The notes beneath the pieces were generated by a model. That model ran no database searches. It had not been told where the DNA came from and saw nothing but the letters and a program-made list of their open reading frames with translations. This document shows positions 1-29,759 of a DNA stretch of 29,759 nt, one piece after another. Source of the stretch: a virus. Position 1 is the stretch's first letter; each line of letters starts with the position of its first letter. Both the position numbers and the translations under genes were made by a program. The DNA is taken from positions 1 through 29,759 of IMG/VR virus record IMGVR_UViG_3300048007_000002. One strand, 5' to 3'.

Positions 1-21
1 CAATTAATGAAAGGTTATAAA

Positions 22-207
22 ATGAAAATAACAATAAATGCTGCTGATGTTATTAAAGCTCAGCAATTTAAAAAAGAAATGAGTGTCGAAGATTTTTCAA
101 AAACTGATGAATTTAAAACACTTCAAAATGCTGGACTAATGAGCATTGAACCAAACAAAGCATATAAAAAAGCTGTCAATACTTTAAGATTTAATTTAAA
201 AAAATAA
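22..207 (+). CDS. Small hypothetical protein
   Basis: A 61-codon reading frame, Lys-rich and predicted soluble, with no motif I recognise. I chose the ATG at 22 because AAGG at 11-14 sits at a normal ribosome-binding distance from it; the in-frame ATG at 7 has no such site. It ends just before a strong terminator, so it is the last gene of a rightward unit that begins outside the window. It is not clearly related to the packaging genes that follow. Confidence 0.55.
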   Translation: MKITINAADVIKAQQFKKEMSVEDFSKTDEFKTLQNAGLMSIEPNKAYKKAVNTLRFNLKK

Positions 208-222
208 ATAATAATAAACATT

Positions 223-262
223 AAACCCATCAGTAATTAATTTTATTGGTGGGTTTTTTTTA
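223..262 (+). terminator. Rho-independent terminator
   Basis: The left arm AAACCCATC (223-231) pairs with GGTGGGTTT (248-256) through a roughly 16-base loop, with one T-G wobble. An uninterrupted run of T follows the right arm. It ends the small gene at 22-207 and insulates the late operon from upstream transcription. Confidence 0.8.
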
Positions 263-393: not shown

Positions 394-517
394 GTTGACC
401 TATATTATAAGGACCATTTAAAAAGATTTTTATTTATAATTACTGATAACATTTTCTTATTGGAACCCTAGATTGTATATATTTACTGACTAGGATCGAC
501 TTTTTTCATTTGCTTGA

Positions 518-566
518 CCCCCCTATACCCCCAGACGCACCCGCCGATTATTATATATATATACAT
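518..566. other. C-rich tract followed by TA-rich tract
   Basis: Six C at 518-523, TATA, five C at 528-532, then CCC at 540-542 and GCC at 543-545. This is the most C-rich stretch in the window. It is followed at once by about 20 bases of A and T up to 566. Seen on the minus strand it has three G-runs of three or more, one short of a canonical G-quadruplex. The strand asymmetry next to an easily melted segment suits an origin or a packaging site. Confidence 0.5.
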
Positions 567-583
567 GGGACTCGAGGACACCT

Positions 584-592
584 TTATACACA
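584..592 (+). promoter_or_regulatory. DnaA-box consensus match (TTATACACA)
   Basis: A perfect match to TTATNCACA, 18 bases after the TA-rich tract and 47 bases upstream of the first gene of the packaging operon. The phage also encodes a DnaA domain IV protein (26193-26705), which makes the site plausible. One or two such matches are expected by chance in 30 kb of this composition, so it is suggestive only. Confidence 0.35.
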
Positions 593-11280: not shown

Positions 11281-11499
11281 ATGAGAAATTACAAATCAGA
11301 ATATAAAAACTACCATTCTAAACCAAAACAAAAAAAGAATAGAGCTGGTAGAAATACTGCAAGAAGAATTATGAAAAAAAAACTTGGTAATAGTATATTA
11401 GGTAAAGATATTGATCATAAAGATAGAAACCCTAGAAACAATAGCAGAAGTAATTTAAGAGTAAGATCCAAATCTTCTAACAGATCAAGGAATAAATAA
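11281..11499 (+). CDS. Small HNH-like basic protein
   Basis: A 72-codon, very Lys/Arg-rich protein. The C-terminal half, GKDIDHKDRNPRNNSRSNLR then SKSSNRSRNK, matches the first part of the HNH nuclease signature: D45-H46, then paired Asn at 53-54 and N58-L59. A clear final His is lacking (Asn67 stands at the equivalent place). Similar short proteins occur between gp14- and gp15-like genes in other marine podoviruses. It may nick DNA, or be a DNA-binding remnant packaged with the ejection proteins. It overlaps the next gene by one base. Confidence 0.7.
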   Translation: MRNYKSEYKNYHSKPKQKKNRAGRNTARRIMKKKLGNSILGKDIDHKDRNPRNNSRSNLRVRSKSSNRSRNK

Positions 11500-19440: not shown

Positions 19441-20852
19441 TGATTATTATACCAGCTAACACTATCTCTGGTGGTTATGAAGTTGCTAACTCATTAAGAT
19501 TTGATGATGGGAGTTCTGATTATTTAACAAGAACACCCGCAAGTGCTAGTAATAGAAAAACTTGGACTTATTCTACATGGATTAAAAGTAATGTTTTAAC
19601 AGGTGCTCATAGATTATTTACATCTTATGATGGAAGCACAGCAACTAATCAATCTACAATAAGTTGGGGTGGTGGTTTGGATTATAGACTTCAATTATAT
19701 AACGCACCTAGTGGAAGTCCTACTATTAATTTAATAACAAACAGAATATTTAGAGATTTGTCAGCTTGGTATCATGTAGTAGTAGCTGTTGATACAACAC
19801 AAGCAACAGGAAGTAGTAGAGCAAAAATTTATATTAATGGTGTTCAAGAAACTTCTTTTTCAACAGAGTTATATGGTAGTCAGAATGAAGATTTTTGGAT
19901 TAACAGCAATCAATTACATACTATTGGAAGAAGGCAAGATAACTCACAATATTTTGACGGCTACATGTCAGAAGTATGTTTCATTGACGGACAACAACTT
20001 ACCCCAACATCATTTGGAGAATTTGACGAAGATACAAACATTTGGAAACCAATAGATGTATCTGGTTTAACCTTTGGCACAAATGGATTCTATTTAGACT
20101 TTGAAAACTCTGGTAGTCTAGGTGCAGATGTATCTGGTAATGGAAATAACTTTACTGTAAATAATTTAACTAGCATAGACCAAACTACTGATACTTGTAC
20201 TAATAATTTTGCTACATTAAATGCTTTAGCAAATTATTATTTTAATGGAACATTATCAGAAGGAAATCTAAAGGTAGTTTCAAGTGGTTCAGTTGAAAGT
20301 TATTTAACAGGCACAATAGCTGTTTCTACAGGAAAATGGTATTGGGAAATAAAAGTTACTGCTTCTGGATCTAATTACGAATTTATTGGTATTGCAGATA
20401 AACTTGCAACAGCTTCAAATTTTACACCTTATTCTGGAAATTCAAAAGTTATTTCTTATTCTGGACATGATGGAAAAAGTATATATGGAAGTACAGGTAC
20501 TGCATATGGTGATACTTATACAACAGGAGATATTATTGGTGTAGCTATGGATTTAGATAATAATAAATTGTACTTTTCTAAAAATGGTGTATTTCAAAAT
20601 AGTGGAGTACCTACATCTGGTGCAACAGGAACAGGTGCTTTAGCAATAGATTCTTCTCCAGCAGATGGTGTTTGGTATCCCCAATTTGCAAATATTCATA
20701 ACACTTCATCTACATTTGAGGCAAACTTTGGCAACCCACCATTCACAATCTCATCAGGCAACACAGATGGAGATGGCTATGGAAACTTTGAATATGCAGT
20801 ACCTAGTGGATATTATTCTTTAAACACAAAAAATTTAGCCGAATATGGTTAA
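19440..20852 (+). CDS. LamG + SPRY-like receptor-binding protein
   Basis: A 470-codon, probably virion surface protein with two predicted beta-sandwich domains. Residues about 15-215 read as a concanavalin/LamG fold (RKTWTYSTWIKS, SAWYHVVVAVDT, KIYINGVQETSF, YFDGYMSEVCFIDGQ). Residues about 285-440 read as a SPRY/B30.2-like fold (GKWYWEIKV, GDIIGVAMDLDNNKLYFSKN, FEANFGNPPF). This pairing is common in marine phage fibres and probably binds glycans or surface proteins. It ends in LNTKNLAEYG, a sequence that in related phages often leads into the DUF7483-type unit that here lies beyond an endonuclease gene. Confidence 0.85.
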   Translation: MIIIPANTISGGYEVANSLRFDDGSSDYLTRTPASASNRKTWTYSTWIKSNVLTGAHRLFTSYDGSTATNQSTISWGGGLDYRLQLYNAPSGSPTINLITNRIFRDLSAWYHVVVAVDTTQATGSSRAKIYINGVQETSFSTELYGSQNEDFWINSNQLHTIGRRQDNSQYFDGYMSEVCFIDGQQLTPTSFGEFDEDTNIWKPIDVSGLTFGTNGFYLDFENSGSLGADVSGNGNNFTVNNLTSIDQTTDTCTNNFATLNALANYYFNGTLSEGNLKVVSSGSVESYLTGTIAVSTGKWYWEIKVTASGSNYEFIGIADKLATASNFTPYSGNSKVISYSGHDGKSIYGSTGTAYGDTYTTGDIIGVAMDLDNNKLYFSKNGVFQNSGVPTSGATGTGALAIDSSPADGVWYPQFANIHNTSSTFEANFGNPPFTISSGNTDGDGYGNFEYAVPSGYYSLNTKNLAEYG

Positions 20853-20856
20853 TGCT

Positions 20857-21525
20857 ATGTTTATTAATAATAAATATAAATCTTGGTATGATTCTATAAT
20901 CCAAAAAGCAAACAATAGAACTATATCAACTTATAAAGAAAAACATCATATCTTGCCAAGATGTTTAGGTGGTAAAGACAATCAAAAAAATTTAGTAGAA
21001 CTTACTGCTAGAGAACATTTTATAGTTCATATGCTTTTATGTAAATTTACTAAAGGTCAAGCAAAACATAAGATGCTTTATAGTTTTAATGCTATGAGTA
21101 CTATGCGATATGGTAAAAGAAAATATAAATTACATAGCAGAACTGCTGGTGTATTAAGAAAAGAATTTTATCAATCTTTAAAAGGTCGTAAAGATTCTCC
21201 AGAAACTAAACTAAAAAAATCATTAAGATTTCAAGGAAAAAATAATCCTAATTATGGAAAAAAATTTAGTGAAGAACATAGAAGAAAATTAAGTGAAGCT
21301 AAAAAAGGTAAAAAACATATTTTATTTGGTAAGAAACATAAACCAGAAACAATAGAGAAAATGAAACAAAAAAAATTAGGGAAAAAATATAGTGATGTTT
21401 CAAGACTTAAAATGAGCATATCTCAAAGAAAATATAAAACTAAAATAAAGATACAAAAATATTTGAATCTATTTACATATTTAGATACAATGCAAAATTC
21501 TAATGAAATAAAAGGAAATTTATAA
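20857..21525 (+). CDS. Free-standing HNH homing endonuclease with NUMOD3 motifs
   Basis: A 222-codon Lys-rich protein. The HNH core is KHHILPRCLGGKDNQKNL followed by TAREHFIVHML, with His30-31, Asn45, His54 and His58 as likely metal or catalytic residues. Two NUMOD3 DNA-binding repeats follow: NPNYGKKFSEEHRRKLSEAK (about 130-149) and FGKKHKPETIEKMKQKK (about 157-173). It is a mobile gene that would cut an intron- or gene-free allele. It lies between two fibre genes and overlaps the first slightly; an earlier in-frame ATG at 20845 is possible. The next gene starts at the overlap with its stop. Confidence 0.9.
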   Translation: MFINNKYKSWYDSIIQKANNRTISTYKEKHHILPRCLGGKDNQKNLVELTAREHFIVHMLLCKFTKGQAKHKMLYSFNAMSTMRYGKRKYKLHSRTAGVLRKEFYQSLKGRKDSPETKLKKSLRFQGKNNPNYGKKFSEEHRRKLSEAKKGKKHILFGKKHKPETIEKMKQKKLGKKYSDVSRLKMSISQRKYKTKIKIQKYLNLFTYLDTMQNSNEIKGNL

Positions 21526-25957: not shown

Positions 25958-26196
25958 TGTCTCTAAGAAAATGGACTTCACAGAATTGGGTTGACATCGC
26001 CAATAGAAAAAAAGGCGGTGGCTTCCCTAAGTGTGGTCGTAGCGGTGGGGAAAAAAGAAAGAACTATCCTAAGTGTGTACCCGCAGCTAAAGCAAGATCA
26101 ATGTCTGCAAGTCAAAGAGCAGCAGCAGTATCAAGAAAAAAGAAAGCTGAAAGAAAAACTAGAAAAAATAAAAGACCTAACTACGCAAGAACTTAA
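25957..26196 (+). CDS. DUF5872-like basic protein
   Basis: A 79-codon protein. LRKWTSQNWVDIANRKKGGG, then FPKCGR, YPKCVPAAKARSMSASQR and a Lys/Arg-rich tail match DUF5872-type proteins known from phages and large eukaryotic viruses. Two short CG/CV knuckles with neighbouring Lys may bind metal. It is the last rightward gene, and its stop overlaps that of the leftward DnaA-like gene. Confidence 0.8.
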   Translation: MSLRKWTSQNWVDIANRKKGGGFPKCGRSGGEKRKNYPKCVPAAKARSMSASQRAAAVSRKKKAERKTRKNKRPNYART

Positions 26197-26705
26197 TTAA
26201 TAAGTTTCTCAAACTCCTGCCATAACGATTGCTCTGGAGACCAAAATCTTTTCTGTTGTTTTTTCATTTCAATAGAATGTAGAACTGTGGTATGATCCTG
26301 TCCAAAATATTTACCTATATCTGTTAGGTTCATGTGATACTTTTCATACAATAAATTGTGAATTACATTTCTAGCTCTAACTATATCTGAGGTCCTACTC
26401 TTATTCATTAGAGTTTCTTTATGTACCTCAAAATGTATGCACACCTTATTAATAATACTTTGAACATCAGATGGTTTAGGTTTTGTAATCTTGTAACCAA
26501 TAATCTTTTTTACATTACTGTCTTGTATCTTTTCTTTTTGCAAGACGTTAGCAGCATATAAGAAACCTTCCGAGAACCCTACCTCATATAATCTTTCTTC
26601 TTGGTTCGTAAGAAGGTAAAATGCTTTCTTAACTTTGTATATAAAATTATTTTGATCTAAGTGTTTTATGTGTTTATTGTAATGTGTGCTTACATTTATG
26701 GTCAT
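26193..26705 (-). CDS. DnaA domain IV (DNA-binding) protein without AAA+ domain
   Basis: A 170-codon protein. Residues about 80-150 match the C-terminal DNA-binding domain of the replication initiator DnaA: a helical start, the NKSRTSDIVRARNVIHNLLY helix (101-120), then LTDIGKYFGQDHTTVLHS (127-144), which is the DnaA signature contacting the DnaA box. There is no Walker motif, so it cannot be an AAA+ initiator by itself. The N-terminal 75 residues are not recognised. It probably binds DnaA-box-like sites, either to start phage replication, to compete with host DnaA or to regulate genes. AGGGGA precedes the ATG. It is the last gene of the leftward unit. Confidence 0.88.
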   Translation of the reverse strand: MTINVSTHYNKHIKHLDQNNFIYKVKKAFYLLTNQEERLYEVGFSEGFLYAANVLQKEKIQDSNVKKIIGYKITKPKPSDVQSIINKVCIHFEVHKETLMNKSRTSDIVRARNVIHNLLYEKYHMNLTDIGKYFGQDHTTVLHSIEMKKQQKRFWSPEQSLWQEFEKLIN

Positions 26706-26756: not shown

Positions 26757-26918
26757 TTATCTTCTCATTAATTCTTCTTTTGTCTGCTCAATTTGCCAAA
26801 TCAAATTAAAAGAATCTTGTTGCTTTTGCTCAACTCTTCTCTTGGCTTCCAAGTATTCTTCATGTGCTTTCGCTTGAAGATCCTTGAGTTTTTGCAGACG
26901 AGATTTTATCTCTTCCAT
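26757..26918 (-). CDS. Small coiled-coil protein (53 aa)
   Basis: A 53-codon frame with an excellent Shine-Dalgarno (AAGGAG, read on the minus strand) upstream of its ATG. The product is one long charged helix (MEEIKSRLQKLKDLQAKAHE, then AKRRVEQKQQ and QIEQTKEELMRR). It overlaps the end of the upstream 73-residue gene by 59 bases in another frame. The function is unknown; a coiled-coil partner is likely. Confidence 0.6.
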   Translation of the reverse strand: MEEIKSRLQKLKDLQAKAHEEYLEAKRRVEQKQQDSFNLIWQIEQTKEELMRR

Positions 26919-27081
26919 CTTTCTCCTTTTTTACTTTTGTAAAATCTACCTTTAAATTTTCGATCTTACATTCTACATACTCACCCTGTGCGTTGGGATC
27001 GGCAGCTTTCTCCACTTCATCAAATCTTTCAACCAGTTGAAAACTAGCTTCGCCAGATTTAATTCTTATATATTTAGTCAT
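26860..27081 (-). CDS. Hypothetical protein (73 aa)
   Basis: A 73-codon protein with a likely beta-rich N-terminal part (TKYIRIKSGEASFQLVERFD, EYVECKIENLKV) and a charged Ser-rich tail that overlaps the next gene. AGAGAT precedes the ATG. The first bases overlap the end of the DUF6378-like gene by eight bases, so it belongs to the leftward operon. No family is recognised. Confidence 0.6.
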   Translation of the reverse strand: MTKYIRIKSGEASFQLVERFDEVEKAADPNAQGEYVECKIENLKVDFTKVKKEKDGRDKISSAKTQGSSSEST

Positions 27082-27373
27082 TTTTATCTCTTTTGTCTAT
27101 ATCTTTTTTGTGTAGATTAAATGTCATGTCATTGTAAATAGATAGGTCATGGTAGTTATCTGCCTTATAACCTTTGGTAGTTCTAAACAATTTAAGTGTC
27201 ATCATGATTTGTCCTACTTGATATGGTCTTAGTTTTTTTTTTAAGTTATCTGCTAATATTAAAGTAAATAGATCAGCAAGTATAGTAAAATTGTATTGGT
27301 AATCCCCATAATCTTTTTGACGATCACTTACTATTTTCTTTTTAATCTCTTTGTCTATGTCTGTTATCTTCAT
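27074..27373 (-). CDS. DUF6378-like phage protein
   Basis: A 99-codon helical protein. SDRQKDYGDYQYNFTILADL, then LRPYQVGQIMMTLKLFRTTK and a final DNYHDLSIY resemble the DUF6378 family (R-x-x-YG...N...K-x-x-R...D-x-x-D), often seen among phage nucleotide and replication genes. The function is unknown; the conserved acidic and basic residues hint at a nucleotide-handling all-alpha enzyme, which is speculative. I chose the ATG at 27373, which overlaps the methyltransferase stop (ATGA), over a TTG six bases upstream. Confidence 0.65.
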   Translation of the reverse strand: MKITDIDKEIKKKIVSDRQKDYGDYQYNFTILADLFTLILADNLKKKLRPYQVGQIMMTLKLFRTTKGYKADNYHDLSIYNDMTFNLHKKDIDKRDKND

Positions 27374-27966
27374 ATCCAATCTATTGTTGGTTTACCTTCA
27401 AATCCTCTTTCCCAAATGTACCAAGCAAAAGCTAACATTCCTCCACCATGAGTTTTTTTATTAGAATCTGGATTAGTAAAAGTTATTCTTCTTGAAAAAA
27501 TATAAACTTTTTTAATAGGTGTAAGTTTAAACATTTTGGATCTAGCAACACCCTCTAAAAAATTAATTCTTGAAAACAATGCAACTTTTTTTGTTGCTAA
27601 TTGATTTGAGTGATAAGCAAAATCTATTCCTAATTTAAATGGTGGATTTGTAATTATATTATCTGTTGTTTTCTTGCTTTTTAAAAAATCTACTCCTGTT
27701 TCACCATAATTTCTGTCAATAAGATCGCTAGAATAAACATTATAATTATATTCTTTTAAAATATTTGAAATAGCACCATCACCACAAGCACATTCCCAAA
27801 TTTCACCCTCAAATTTTTCTCTTTCTAATAGTGGATAAATTGCATCTGGTGGAGTTGGATAAAAATCATCTTTTTGTCTATCATTGTTTAAGTTATGTCC
27901 TGCCATTCTCATTTTAGTGAGTTTATTTCCTTGAGAAATATTTAATATATCGTCTGCTTTACTCAT
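27370..27966 (-). CDS. Adenine-specific DNA methyltransferase (orphan)
   Basis: A 198-codon class I methyltransferase. DFYPTPPDAIYPLLE (34-48) precedes motif I, WECACGDGAI (57-66), the SAM-binding loop. TDNIITNPPF (101-110) carries motif IV NPPF, typical of N6-adenine methyltransferases. A C-terminal MLAFAWYIWE strand is characteristic of this phage family. No restriction enzyme is next to it, so it probably protects phage DNA from host nucleases or marks DNA for packaging or replication. Target specificity cannot be read. The ATG at 27966 is preferred over an upstream TTG, although its Shine-Dalgarno is poor. Confidence 0.88.
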   Translation of the reverse strand: MSKADDILNISQGNKLTKMRMAGHNLNNDRQKDDFYPTPPDAIYPLLEREKFEGEIWECACGDGAISNILKEYNYNVYSSDLIDRNYGETGVDFLKSKKTTDNIITNPPFKLGIDFAYHSNQLATKKVALFSRINFLEGVARSKMFKLTPIKKVYIFSRRITFTNPDSNKKTHGGGMLAFAWYIWERGFEGKPTIDWI

Positions 27967-28086
27967 ATTTTTTTTAAAGGTATGGCAAGGAAAAAACAAT
28001 TAAGGGAGCTTTAGCAAAGAAAGGGAAAGATGCTAATATGATTAACCCAAAAAAACCTCGCCACACCATTGAACTACAATTCTAAA

Positions 28087-28425
28087 TTAGTAGTTGTAGT
28101 TAGTTTTATTATATGCTGATCCTTGACCTTTTGCAAACCTGTTATTGTTAGGTGCAAAAGATTGCTGCGGTCCTCTCGGCTTTGCAGCGGATGAACCAGT
28201 ATTTGATGGTGTCAAGACTACATTGATAATGCCTGTGGGATTACCTTGTTCGTCAAGATCATCAAATCCTGCTTGGTTGTACCAATTCTCTCCAATCTTA
28301 ACACCTATTCTCCAGGTTTTACCCTCTGGTGATTTTGGATTTATCGGTGCAACAAAACTTGGTCTGTTGTCTCCTGCTTGTTTGTCTTGGTTGTGTGTAA
28401 GTTTTATATATATCTTATCACTCAT
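28087..28425 (-). CDS. Hypothetical protein, possible ssDNA-binding partner
   Basis: A 112-codon protein with a probable beta-barrel-like N-terminal part (KIYIKLTHNQDKQA, KTWRIGVKIGENWYNQAGFD, GIINVVLTPSN) and a disordered Gly/Asn/Pro/Gln tail (about residues 75-112). The layout, a folded domain plus a low-complexity tail, next to an annealing protein and an exonuclease, is reminiscent of an SSB. The tail lacks the acidic tip of bacterial SSBs and ends in aromatic NYNY. It overlaps the ERF gene by four bases (ATGA type). I am unsure of the function. Confidence 0.6.
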   Translation of the reverse strand: MSDKIYIKLTHNQDKQAGDNRPSFVAPINPKSPEGKTWRIGVKIGENWYNQAGFDDLDEQGNPTGIINVVLTPSNTGSSAAKPRGPQQSFAPNNNRFAKGQGSAYNKTNYNY

Positions 28426-29078
28426 TGTGTAACTCCTTGTTGGTTTAGTTTAGTCTCATGAGTTTCATATAGATCAGTTATCTGTCTATAAACTCTGAGA
28501 TTATTGTTAGGATCAAATAGTTTAGAATTACGTTTTCTAAATTCTCTTAAAACATAAATATTATCAATTTGTTTTATGATTTCTCCTATTTGATTCATAT
28601 CAATGTCCATATCGACATTGGCATGAGCTGTACCACTTGGTTTTTGTTGTGGAATTTTATTGGTAGGTTTAGGTTGTTCAAAAGGTTTTGCCTTGTAGCC
28701 ATCTTCATTATCTAAACCTGTTTTTAAATTAAGTGCATTTAAGAAAGCATACTTCTTAGCATAAGACATACCATTACCAGTACCAAACTTATCTAAGTTT
28801 CCCATTGCAGAACATCCTTCAATATCAATATGACTTGTTGGATCTTCGATGTCATGTATTCTCATTGAACAAGTAACCATGATAAAAGTTTCTTTAACAT
28901 AGTTAGTGTAAGTACAGATAGGATATAATCCATTGTTTAACAATGCTTCCATTGCCACCCTCTGAACTTCATCGTGTTGTAAAGGATTGAAGTGCATACC
29001 AGGAACTTTCTTTCCCTTTGCCACACCTCCTGCTTCACAAGCAGCTTTATGTAATTTTTGATATATGTTTAGTTTCAT
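28422..29078 (-). CDS. ERF-family single-strand annealing protein
   Basis: A 218-codon recombinase that anneals complementary single strands during phage recombination and concatemer formation. The N-terminus LNIYQKLHKAACEAGG and the core IEGCSAMGNLDKFGTGNGMS (about 86-105), then YAKKYAFLNALNLKTGLDNE (about 106-125), form the ERF-type signature (D...G...SYAxKY...L...D-x-E). The C-terminal third is a linker plus a helical tail. The ATG at 29078 overlaps the exonuclease TGA (ATGA) and has a G-rich ribosome-binding site. The partner exonuclease is encoded directly upstream. Confidence 0.85.
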   Translation of the reverse strand: MKLNIYQKLHKAACEAGGVAKGKKVPGMHFNPLQHDEVQRVAMEALLNNGLYPICTYTNYVKETFIMVTCSMRIHDIEDPTSHIDIEGCSAMGNLDKFGTGNGMSYAKKYAFLNALNLKTGLDNEDGYKAKPFEQPKPTNKIPQQKPSGTAHANVDMDIDMNQIGEIIKQIDNIYVLREFRKRNSKLFDPNNNLRVYRQITDLYETHETKLNQQGVTQ

Positions 29079-29759
29079 GCGTCTAACCCCCATAGTTTTT
29101 TGATTTGTTTTTTTTGATCGTCTATTAAATCCCTATAATAAAAAGGGTGATTTAATTCTGGTGGTTCTGCAAAGTGTGCTAACTTCTCTAAGCTACCTTC
29201 ACAGAAAACAATTAACTCTTCCCATGACTTTAACCTTTGGGTCATAAGATGGTATTGTTCTTTTAAATAATCTGGTCTCAACATATCGTGTCCATCATCA
29301 AATATTGTATACTCATTTTCATTCACATAAAACAAAAAAGGTTTTTTCTGTGTGCAATGATAGTAGAACGCAACTTGAGAAACGTGCATTGGGTCTGGAT
29401 CATTTGGCAGCTGCGTTGTTGCCATGTAGTATTCATCTTTACCTCTACGCTTTTTAATACTAACTGGTTTAGTCTTAGCTTCTCCTATAATGTCATTGCT
29501 TTCATAATCTATACGACCAATAATATCATGGATCATGTCTTTGCTTTTGCTTGACACATATCTTTCAGCAACTAATTTTGCATCACCAAATATTTCTTTG
29601 ACACATTTTTTCATGTTCTCGATTGTTGGATGTGCGAAGCTAATCATCATCTCTCTTGCAAGTTTATCCTTGCTATCTACTGGTGGACTATCTTTATCTA
29701 TTGCCTTTAACTCTTGCTCAAATACTTCATCATAGTTTTTATTTTCTAAAGTAATCTTT
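29075..29759 (-). CDS. RecB/Cas4-like PD-(D/E)XK exonuclease, partial (5' end off window)
   Basis: The frame is open to the window edge with no earlier in-frame stop. I see about 228 codons, beginning KITLENKNYDEVFEQELKAI; a Met at 29650 is internal. The nuclease core is DIIGRIDYESNDIIGEAKTK: an Asp in GRID, then Glu-Ala-Lys as (D/E)XK, followed by a HVSQVAFYYHC motif (the Q-x-x-x-Y of RecB-family nucleases). It probably resects duplex ends to feed the ERF annealing protein, as Red alpha/beta do. The gene is not broken, only cut by the window. Confidence 0.85.
   Translation of the reverse strand, partial: KITLENKNYDEVFEQELKAIDKDSPPVDSKDKLAREMMISFAHPTIENMKKCVKEIFGDAKLVAERYVSSKSKDMIHDIIGRIDYESNDIIGEAKTKPVSIKKRRGKDEYYMATTQLPNDPDPMHVSQVAFYYHCTQKKPFLFYVNENEYTIFDDGHDMLRPDYLKEQYHLMTQRLKSWEELIVFCEGSLEKLAHFAEPPELNHPFYYRDLIDDQKKQIKKLWGLDA

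Follow-up and report, generated by a model that had tools for sequence, protein, structure and literature searches.

A stand-alone DnaA domain IV protein in HTVC010P-type pelagiphages and its possible role at the boundary between early and late genes

The locus described here raises the question of what a phage might do with the DNA-binding domain of DnaA when that domain comes without the AAA+ domain. The window, by which we mean the whole stretch of DNA that was analyzed, is a 29,759-base virus record of an HTVC010P-type pelagiphage, one of a SAR11-infecting group, and apparently represents part of an approximately 35-kb genome. An ORF on its minus strand (26193..26705), beginning with ATG and supported by Pfam and by relatives, encodes a 170-aa protein that we call DnaA_C. 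A first-pass annotation had placed it in a phage, as is indeed the case, and had recognized a stand-alone DnaA domain IV for which it listed three functions without choosing among them: seeding phage replication, titrating host DnaA sites, or regulation. Among cultured phages, the window is closest to isolates of Polarivirus skadi, whose DnaA_C protein is 86.5% identical, and to other HTVC010P-type pelagiphages; the DnaA_C proteins of cultured HTVC010P-type relatives are 50-87% identical to that of the window across most or all of the protein.

The identity of the domain was confirmed. The Bac_DnaA_C profile (PF08299) matched the 170-aa ORF at E 2.1e-18 and 66.5 bits, compared to a curated cut-off of 31.5 bits, covering profile positions 2-67 of 69 and placing the domain at residues 82-146 (26268..26462, minus strand). 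A six-frame search of the window and ten complete relatives found the profile over its cut-off in 11/11 genomes, with a single Bac_DnaA_C copy in each. A profile of 21 relatives retrieved 1j1v, E. coli DnaA domain IV with DnaA-box DNA, at E 5.6e-10, and an AlphaFold2 model built from 29 sequences was confident across residues 81-150 (pLDDT about 88-92), with 1j1v_A as its best solved match (TM 0.82 by target length, 1.8 A, 90 columns). Two of the checks that the first-pass annotation had proposed, the profile search and the structure prediction, bore out its assignment. The N-terminal module (residues 1-70; 26496..26705, minus strand) was predicted to be helical and was poorly determined; these ~70 residues matched no family in Pfam, PHROGs or NCBIfam, as had been suspected, and the low-confidence model of the module gave no useful match. 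No DnaA AAA+ domain (PF00308) was found in the window or the ten complete relatives by six-frame search, again as claimed. The NCBIfam DnaA models (TIGR00362) aligned with the ORF only at their C-terminal end (positions 316-418 of 437) with 63.6 bits, far under the equivalog cut-off of 343.9 bits. Set beside a full DnaA initiator of the TIGR00362 kind, the system has neither AAA+ domain III nor a canonical box array; the dyad cluster described below is present.

Box contacts in E. coli DnaA are made by residues 399, 423, 432-435 and 438-439 (PMC5043019). We extracted 325 homologues, and filtering to below 95% identity left 91 non-redundant ones. All 91 have the equivalents of E. coli R399, R407, D433, H434 and T436, and 90 have that of T435; in DnaA_C numbering, Q136, D137, H138, T140 and S144 are invariant in 91/91 and T139 is found in 90/91. 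The L438 and H439 equivalents are mostly kept, and the P423 position is Ser/Thr in the family. The motif that had been read by eye is present, with R104 followed by DHTTVLHS at residues 137-144, within a recognition-helix segment, QDHTTVLHS (residues 136-144; 26274..26300, minus strand), delimited by the homologue alignment and the published contacts. What that reading had missed is that throughout the family the loop leading into the recognition helix lacks one residue relative to E. coli DnaA (FG-QDHTT versus FGGRDHTT) and that the position of Arg432, which contacts bases in E. coli, is Gln in 91/91 homologues. Judged by alignment, the set of DnaA-box base contacts thus appears largely, and not completely, retained.

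The dN/dS values relative to Skadi-1, 0.15 for the N-terminal part and 0.07 for the C-terminal part, show that the gene is under purifying selection (about 0.07-0.15). Because it is also intact in 11/11 genomes and yielded 325 homologues, the ORF is not a chance frame. Comparison of lineages shows a modular protein whose N- and C-terminal types occur in different combinations: L058 joins a window-type N terminus (90% identity) to a different C-terminal type (45%), and L063 likewise has the window-type module on a second C-terminal type, while L049 combines a different N terminus (37%) with a similar C terminus (82%), and L052 likewise has the window's C-terminal type with another N terminus.

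Upstream of DnaA_C, the ORF list and profile matches define a group of minus-strand genes (26860..29650) that includes a small ORF, a DUF6378 gene (27074-27379), an ORF without family assignment (28087-28425), an ERF annealing protein gene (28422-29093) and a nuclease-like ORF (29075-29650). A DNA methyltransferase-like gene (27370-27999; PHROG DNA methyltransferase family 799, E 3e-57) separates the DUF6378 gene from the recombination genes. DnaA_C is encoded on the recombination-gene strand, opposite the structural genes, and is convergent with the end of the structural series. Amid the structural genes, two plus-strand ORFs (20845-21525 and 11281-11499) look HNH-endonuclease-like by eye and are possible homing endonucleases; Rfam and tRNA searches of the window gave no match.

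The gene is not new, and the novelty implied by the first-pass annotation is reduced because relatives already bear DnaA-type names and the stand-alone kind is common in uncultured phages. Most deposits of the cultured relatives call the protein "DNA replication initiation (DnaA)," "DnaA-like" or "Bac_DnaA_C domain-containing," DnaA is among the proteins listed for all HTVC010P-related genomes (PMC6811365), and short "DnaA C-terminal" proteins from uncultured Caudovirales are numerous in BFVD. One match, L172 (PBPJ01000001.1, 17456 bp), filed as a Woesearchaeota archaeon metagenome-assembled genome (MAG), is pelagiphage DNA; as its length and match coordinates equal those of IMGVR_UViG_2785511133_000004, that MAG is contaminated or mis-binned.

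Does DnaA_C start replication, as these names say? Neither a DnaB-type helicase (DnaB C-terminal domain) nor DNA polymerase A was found in the window or the ten complete relatives by six-frame search, which agrees with the published account in which Skadi relies on host DNA and RNA polymerases (PMC10504331). A helicase loader has been reported for the phage (PMC10504331); the ten Skadi-1 early proteins that we examined gave no clear PHROG match to a P-like loader. A Skadi-1 protein deposited as "putative transcriptional regulator" matches several PHROGs that carry O-like or replication-initiation names, with a best E of 4.7e-7, and the same gene in four relatives from other lineages does so too, with best E values per protein for the five of 1e-7 to 6e-4, a remote similarity. 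The protein has a predicted winged helix and weak structural matches that include plasmid initiator-type domains. Its gene occurs in 10/10 complete genomes and also in contigs resembling the window (L004, L005, L010 and L026, for instance), on the minus strand past the right end of the window (L002:4008-4706; L026:4299-5003).

The part of this O-like gene that encodes the linker after the winged helix contains direct repeats at 21-22 bp intervals, and in many cases an inverted copy comes after them. The repeat is GATAGCCGT in HTVC100P and Greip and TATAAAAATGAAACAT in the window-like lineage; its sequence varies by lineage, with spacing and place constant. A codon-shuffle test gave p 0.03 or less in most lineages and no significant repeats in the HTVC203P/L052-like group, and the repeat region is without DnaA boxes. 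These repeats are a probable lambda-type phage origin that has gone unannotated. Being lineage specific, they fit the O-like protein rather than DnaA_C, whose contact residues, like the TTAT motif described below, are lineage invariant, and the O-like protein is more likely than DnaA_C to start phage replication, using the host replisome. It is this gene, not DnaA_C, that resembles lambda O, in its winged-helix N terminus and in the location of its repeats, although the similarity is remote and there are two to three repeats rather than four.

DnaA-box-like sequences are instead concentrated ahead of the terminase operon. The late, structural genes begin on the plus strand with a 63-aa ORF (639-830), followed by the terminase large subunit gene, terL (833-2104). 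A canonical DnaA-box match, TTATACACA, lies 55 bp before the 63-aa ORF (584..592, plus strand), where a boxA-like reading is also possible. A conserved TTATATATATATACATGGG (551..569, plus strand) is the presumed core of the late promoter, which we infer from its conservation; a consensus promoter scan did not report it. At 440..466 (no strand) is a dyad of DnaA-box-like half-sites, TTACTGATAA-N7-TTATTGGAAC, a candidate site that is imperfect in the window; its consensus, GATAA-N7-TTATC, lies about 140 bp further upstream of the canonical box, at a position conserved in relatives.

Across the 11 genomes, the canonical box TTATNCACA occurs 17 times, versus 27 expected under a second-order model and 19 under a third-order model, and so is neither enriched nor depleted overall. 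However, 6/17 fall within the 400-bp stretch that precedes the ORF next to terL, where 0.13 would be expected. The same 400 bp contain 16 TTATCRNWA sequences versus 1.9 expected, and 7/14 exact GATAA-N7-TTATC dyads are in the terL-upstream region. In 19 strictly thinned lineages, the summed dyad core score was 178, compared to a mean of 150.5 and a maximum of 160 in 200 Markov-shuffled sets, and 11 dyads lay within one 40-bp stretch (null maximum, 5), figures that overstate independence and significance in that the lineages share descent. The 45 thinned lineages supply 90 half-sites, of which 88 have a purine (A/G) at position 6 and 73 have A at position 9; these two positions were not scored directly, whereas the score did include palindromy. 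The Lederberg dyad and a site at -57 in that phage converge on one 9-mer, TTATC(A/G)ACA (TTATCAACA, TTATCGACA, TTATCAACA). In HTVC100P (L085, 34323-34373), the terminase genes are preceded by a tandem pair of GATAA-N6/7-TTATC dyads separated by about 30 bp, an arrangement that recalls a phage operator with several sites.

Other features of the same intergenic region were noted separately. A terminator-like hairpin with a T run (223-256, plus strand) follows a 66-aa ORF (7-207, plus strand) and precedes the presumed late promoter. At 375-400, GGTCAGTATTGGTCAGTATTGTTGACC contains a repeated and inverted GGTCAG motif, partly common to HTVC010P (GGTCAACATTACTGACC) and not seen in most other relatives.

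Several other candidates were set aside. Repeats near the DnaA_C gene are only weak, low-complexity pairs, and a non-coding origin just upstream of it was rejected, as relatives apparently keep the coding frame to about 60 bp before the gene. A two-fold depletion of boxes under a first-order model vanished under the third-order model.

The explanation that we favor, tentatively and at somewhat less than even odds, is that DnaA_C regulates phage transcription at the boundary between early and late genes, helping the change from early to late expression. What recommends it is the combination of invariant box-contact residues with a DnaA-box-like motif that keeps its place at this boundary across lineages. 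Under this model, DnaA_C would be a sequence-specific DNA-binding regulator that combines DnaA domain IV with a helical N-terminal module peculiar to the phage. Its targets would be DnaA-box-like 9-mers located where the early and late gene sets meet, the candidates being the TTATCRNWA dyad and the downstream box on either side of the presumed late promoter, and once bound the protein would help control the early-to-late switch. The N-terminal module may serve dimerization or RNA polymerase contact, and replication itself would start from the O-like protein on its in-gene repeats with the host replisome. We infer binding of the predicted sites, an effect on transcription and its direction alike. 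Of the functions first listed, regulation has gained support because the box excess sits ahead of the terminase operon, where early and late genes meet, and seeding of phage replication has lost ground because of the O-like initiator with its in-gene repeats and because canonical boxes are in excess at one place only. A narrower version, in which a captured domain IV is a dedicated early/late switch with its own TTATCRNWA-dyad operator, its specificity shifted by the shorter loop and the Arg432-to-Gln change, and replication proceeds from a separate lambda-type origin, is doubtful as a whole.

We consider it unlikely that DnaA_C is instead an initiator or accessory initiator, marking an origin, whether between the early and late genes or jointly with the O-like protein, with the N-terminal module recruiting the host helicase or loader without an AAA+ domain. 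The depositors' naming speaks for such a role, as does reliance on the host DNA polymerase (PMC10504331) in genomes that have neither DNA polymerase A nor a DnaB-type helicase. In complete genomes, moreover, the cumulative GC-skew minimum lies at or within about 700 bp of the box-bearing early/late region, as an origin would, which makes an origin there possible and counts against the regulator; gene orientation, which the skew also follows, could by itself give this pattern. The initiator reading is at odds with the separate O-like initiator and its 21-22 bp in-gene repeats in all lineages examined, and with the absence of a recognized helicase-binding domain from the DnaA_C protein. Nor was an oriC-like array of canonical boxes found as a phage origin: there is one canonical box near the late genes and one or two dyads.

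It is less probable again that DnaA_C serves in host takeover, as a free domain IV that fills host DnaA boxes without forming an AAA+ filament and so imposes a dominant-negative block on oriC, freeing the host replisome for the phage. Strict conservation of the box-contact residues, the missing AAA+ domain and the strong dependence on host replication proteins would all suit this role, whereas the changed loop and the Arg-to-Gln substitution might shift specificity away from such boxes. Competition for host boxes might also be expected to leave a sign of box avoidance, but phage genomes are not significantly depleted (17 versus 19-27 expected, within the spread of random patterns), and control pelagiphages without the gene look alike.

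The least probable of the explanations weighed is that the terL-upstream sites have nothing to do with DnaA_C, the -55 motif serving in RNA as a boxA-type antitermination element, the dyad belonging to another phage regulator and DnaA_C acting elsewhere. The exact canonical box is missing in about half of the thinned leaders, which have CCCTTACACACA instead; because that sequence resembles lambda boxA (CGCTCTTACACA), an element of this kind could account for the -55 motif, and leaders with TTACACACA fit an antitermination boxA as well or better. Relatives also encode other conserved DNA-binding candidates, and these or host DnaA could own the candidate sites. Further against the regulator, the dyad half-sites depart from the DnaA box at positions 6-8, while the residues of the reading helix equivalent to D433-T435 are conserved, and the early and late promoters are presumed ones. 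Unrelated sites, in turn, would leave unexplained that the dyad half-sites and the -57 site share one 9-mer in Lederberg. Regulation at the early/late boundary is thus preferred to initiation or host-origin blocking, with the reserve stated above.

The protein does not really differ from the DnaA-like proteins of cultured HTVC010P-type phages (HTVC010P, Skadi-1, Greip, Lederberg, HTVC203P and others), which share its family, genome position and architecture; it is their replication-initiation label that is doubtful given the O-like gene. It shares with E. coli DnaA domain IV (1j1v) the fold and most base-contact residues, but lacks domains I-III and has the shorter pre-helix loop and the invariant Gln at the Arg432 position. 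The "DnaA C-terminal" proteins of uncultured Caudovirales are also stand-alone domain IV proteins, mostly of about 90-190 aa in the listed matches, in which identity is 13-33% and largely confined to the domain. The DnaA DNA-binding domain has also been reused outside DnaA in TnpA-REP transposases of subclass 2.1, which have a Bac_DnaA_C-like C terminus but are fused to a HuH nuclease and are thought to target something other than the DnaA box (PMC6006769).

HTVC010P-type phages rank with the most abundant viruses of the ocean and are the second most abundant known pelagiphage group (PMC12753301); the protein now annotated as their replication initiator may be the wrong one. If the regulator model is right, the label "DNA replication initiation (DnaA)" would point to the wrong step, with the likely real initiator going by the name "transcriptional regulator," and these phages would offer a specific operator and a specific origin that can be tested directly. 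DnaA_C would then be a clear case of the DNA-binding domain of a replication initiator reused as a phage regulator.
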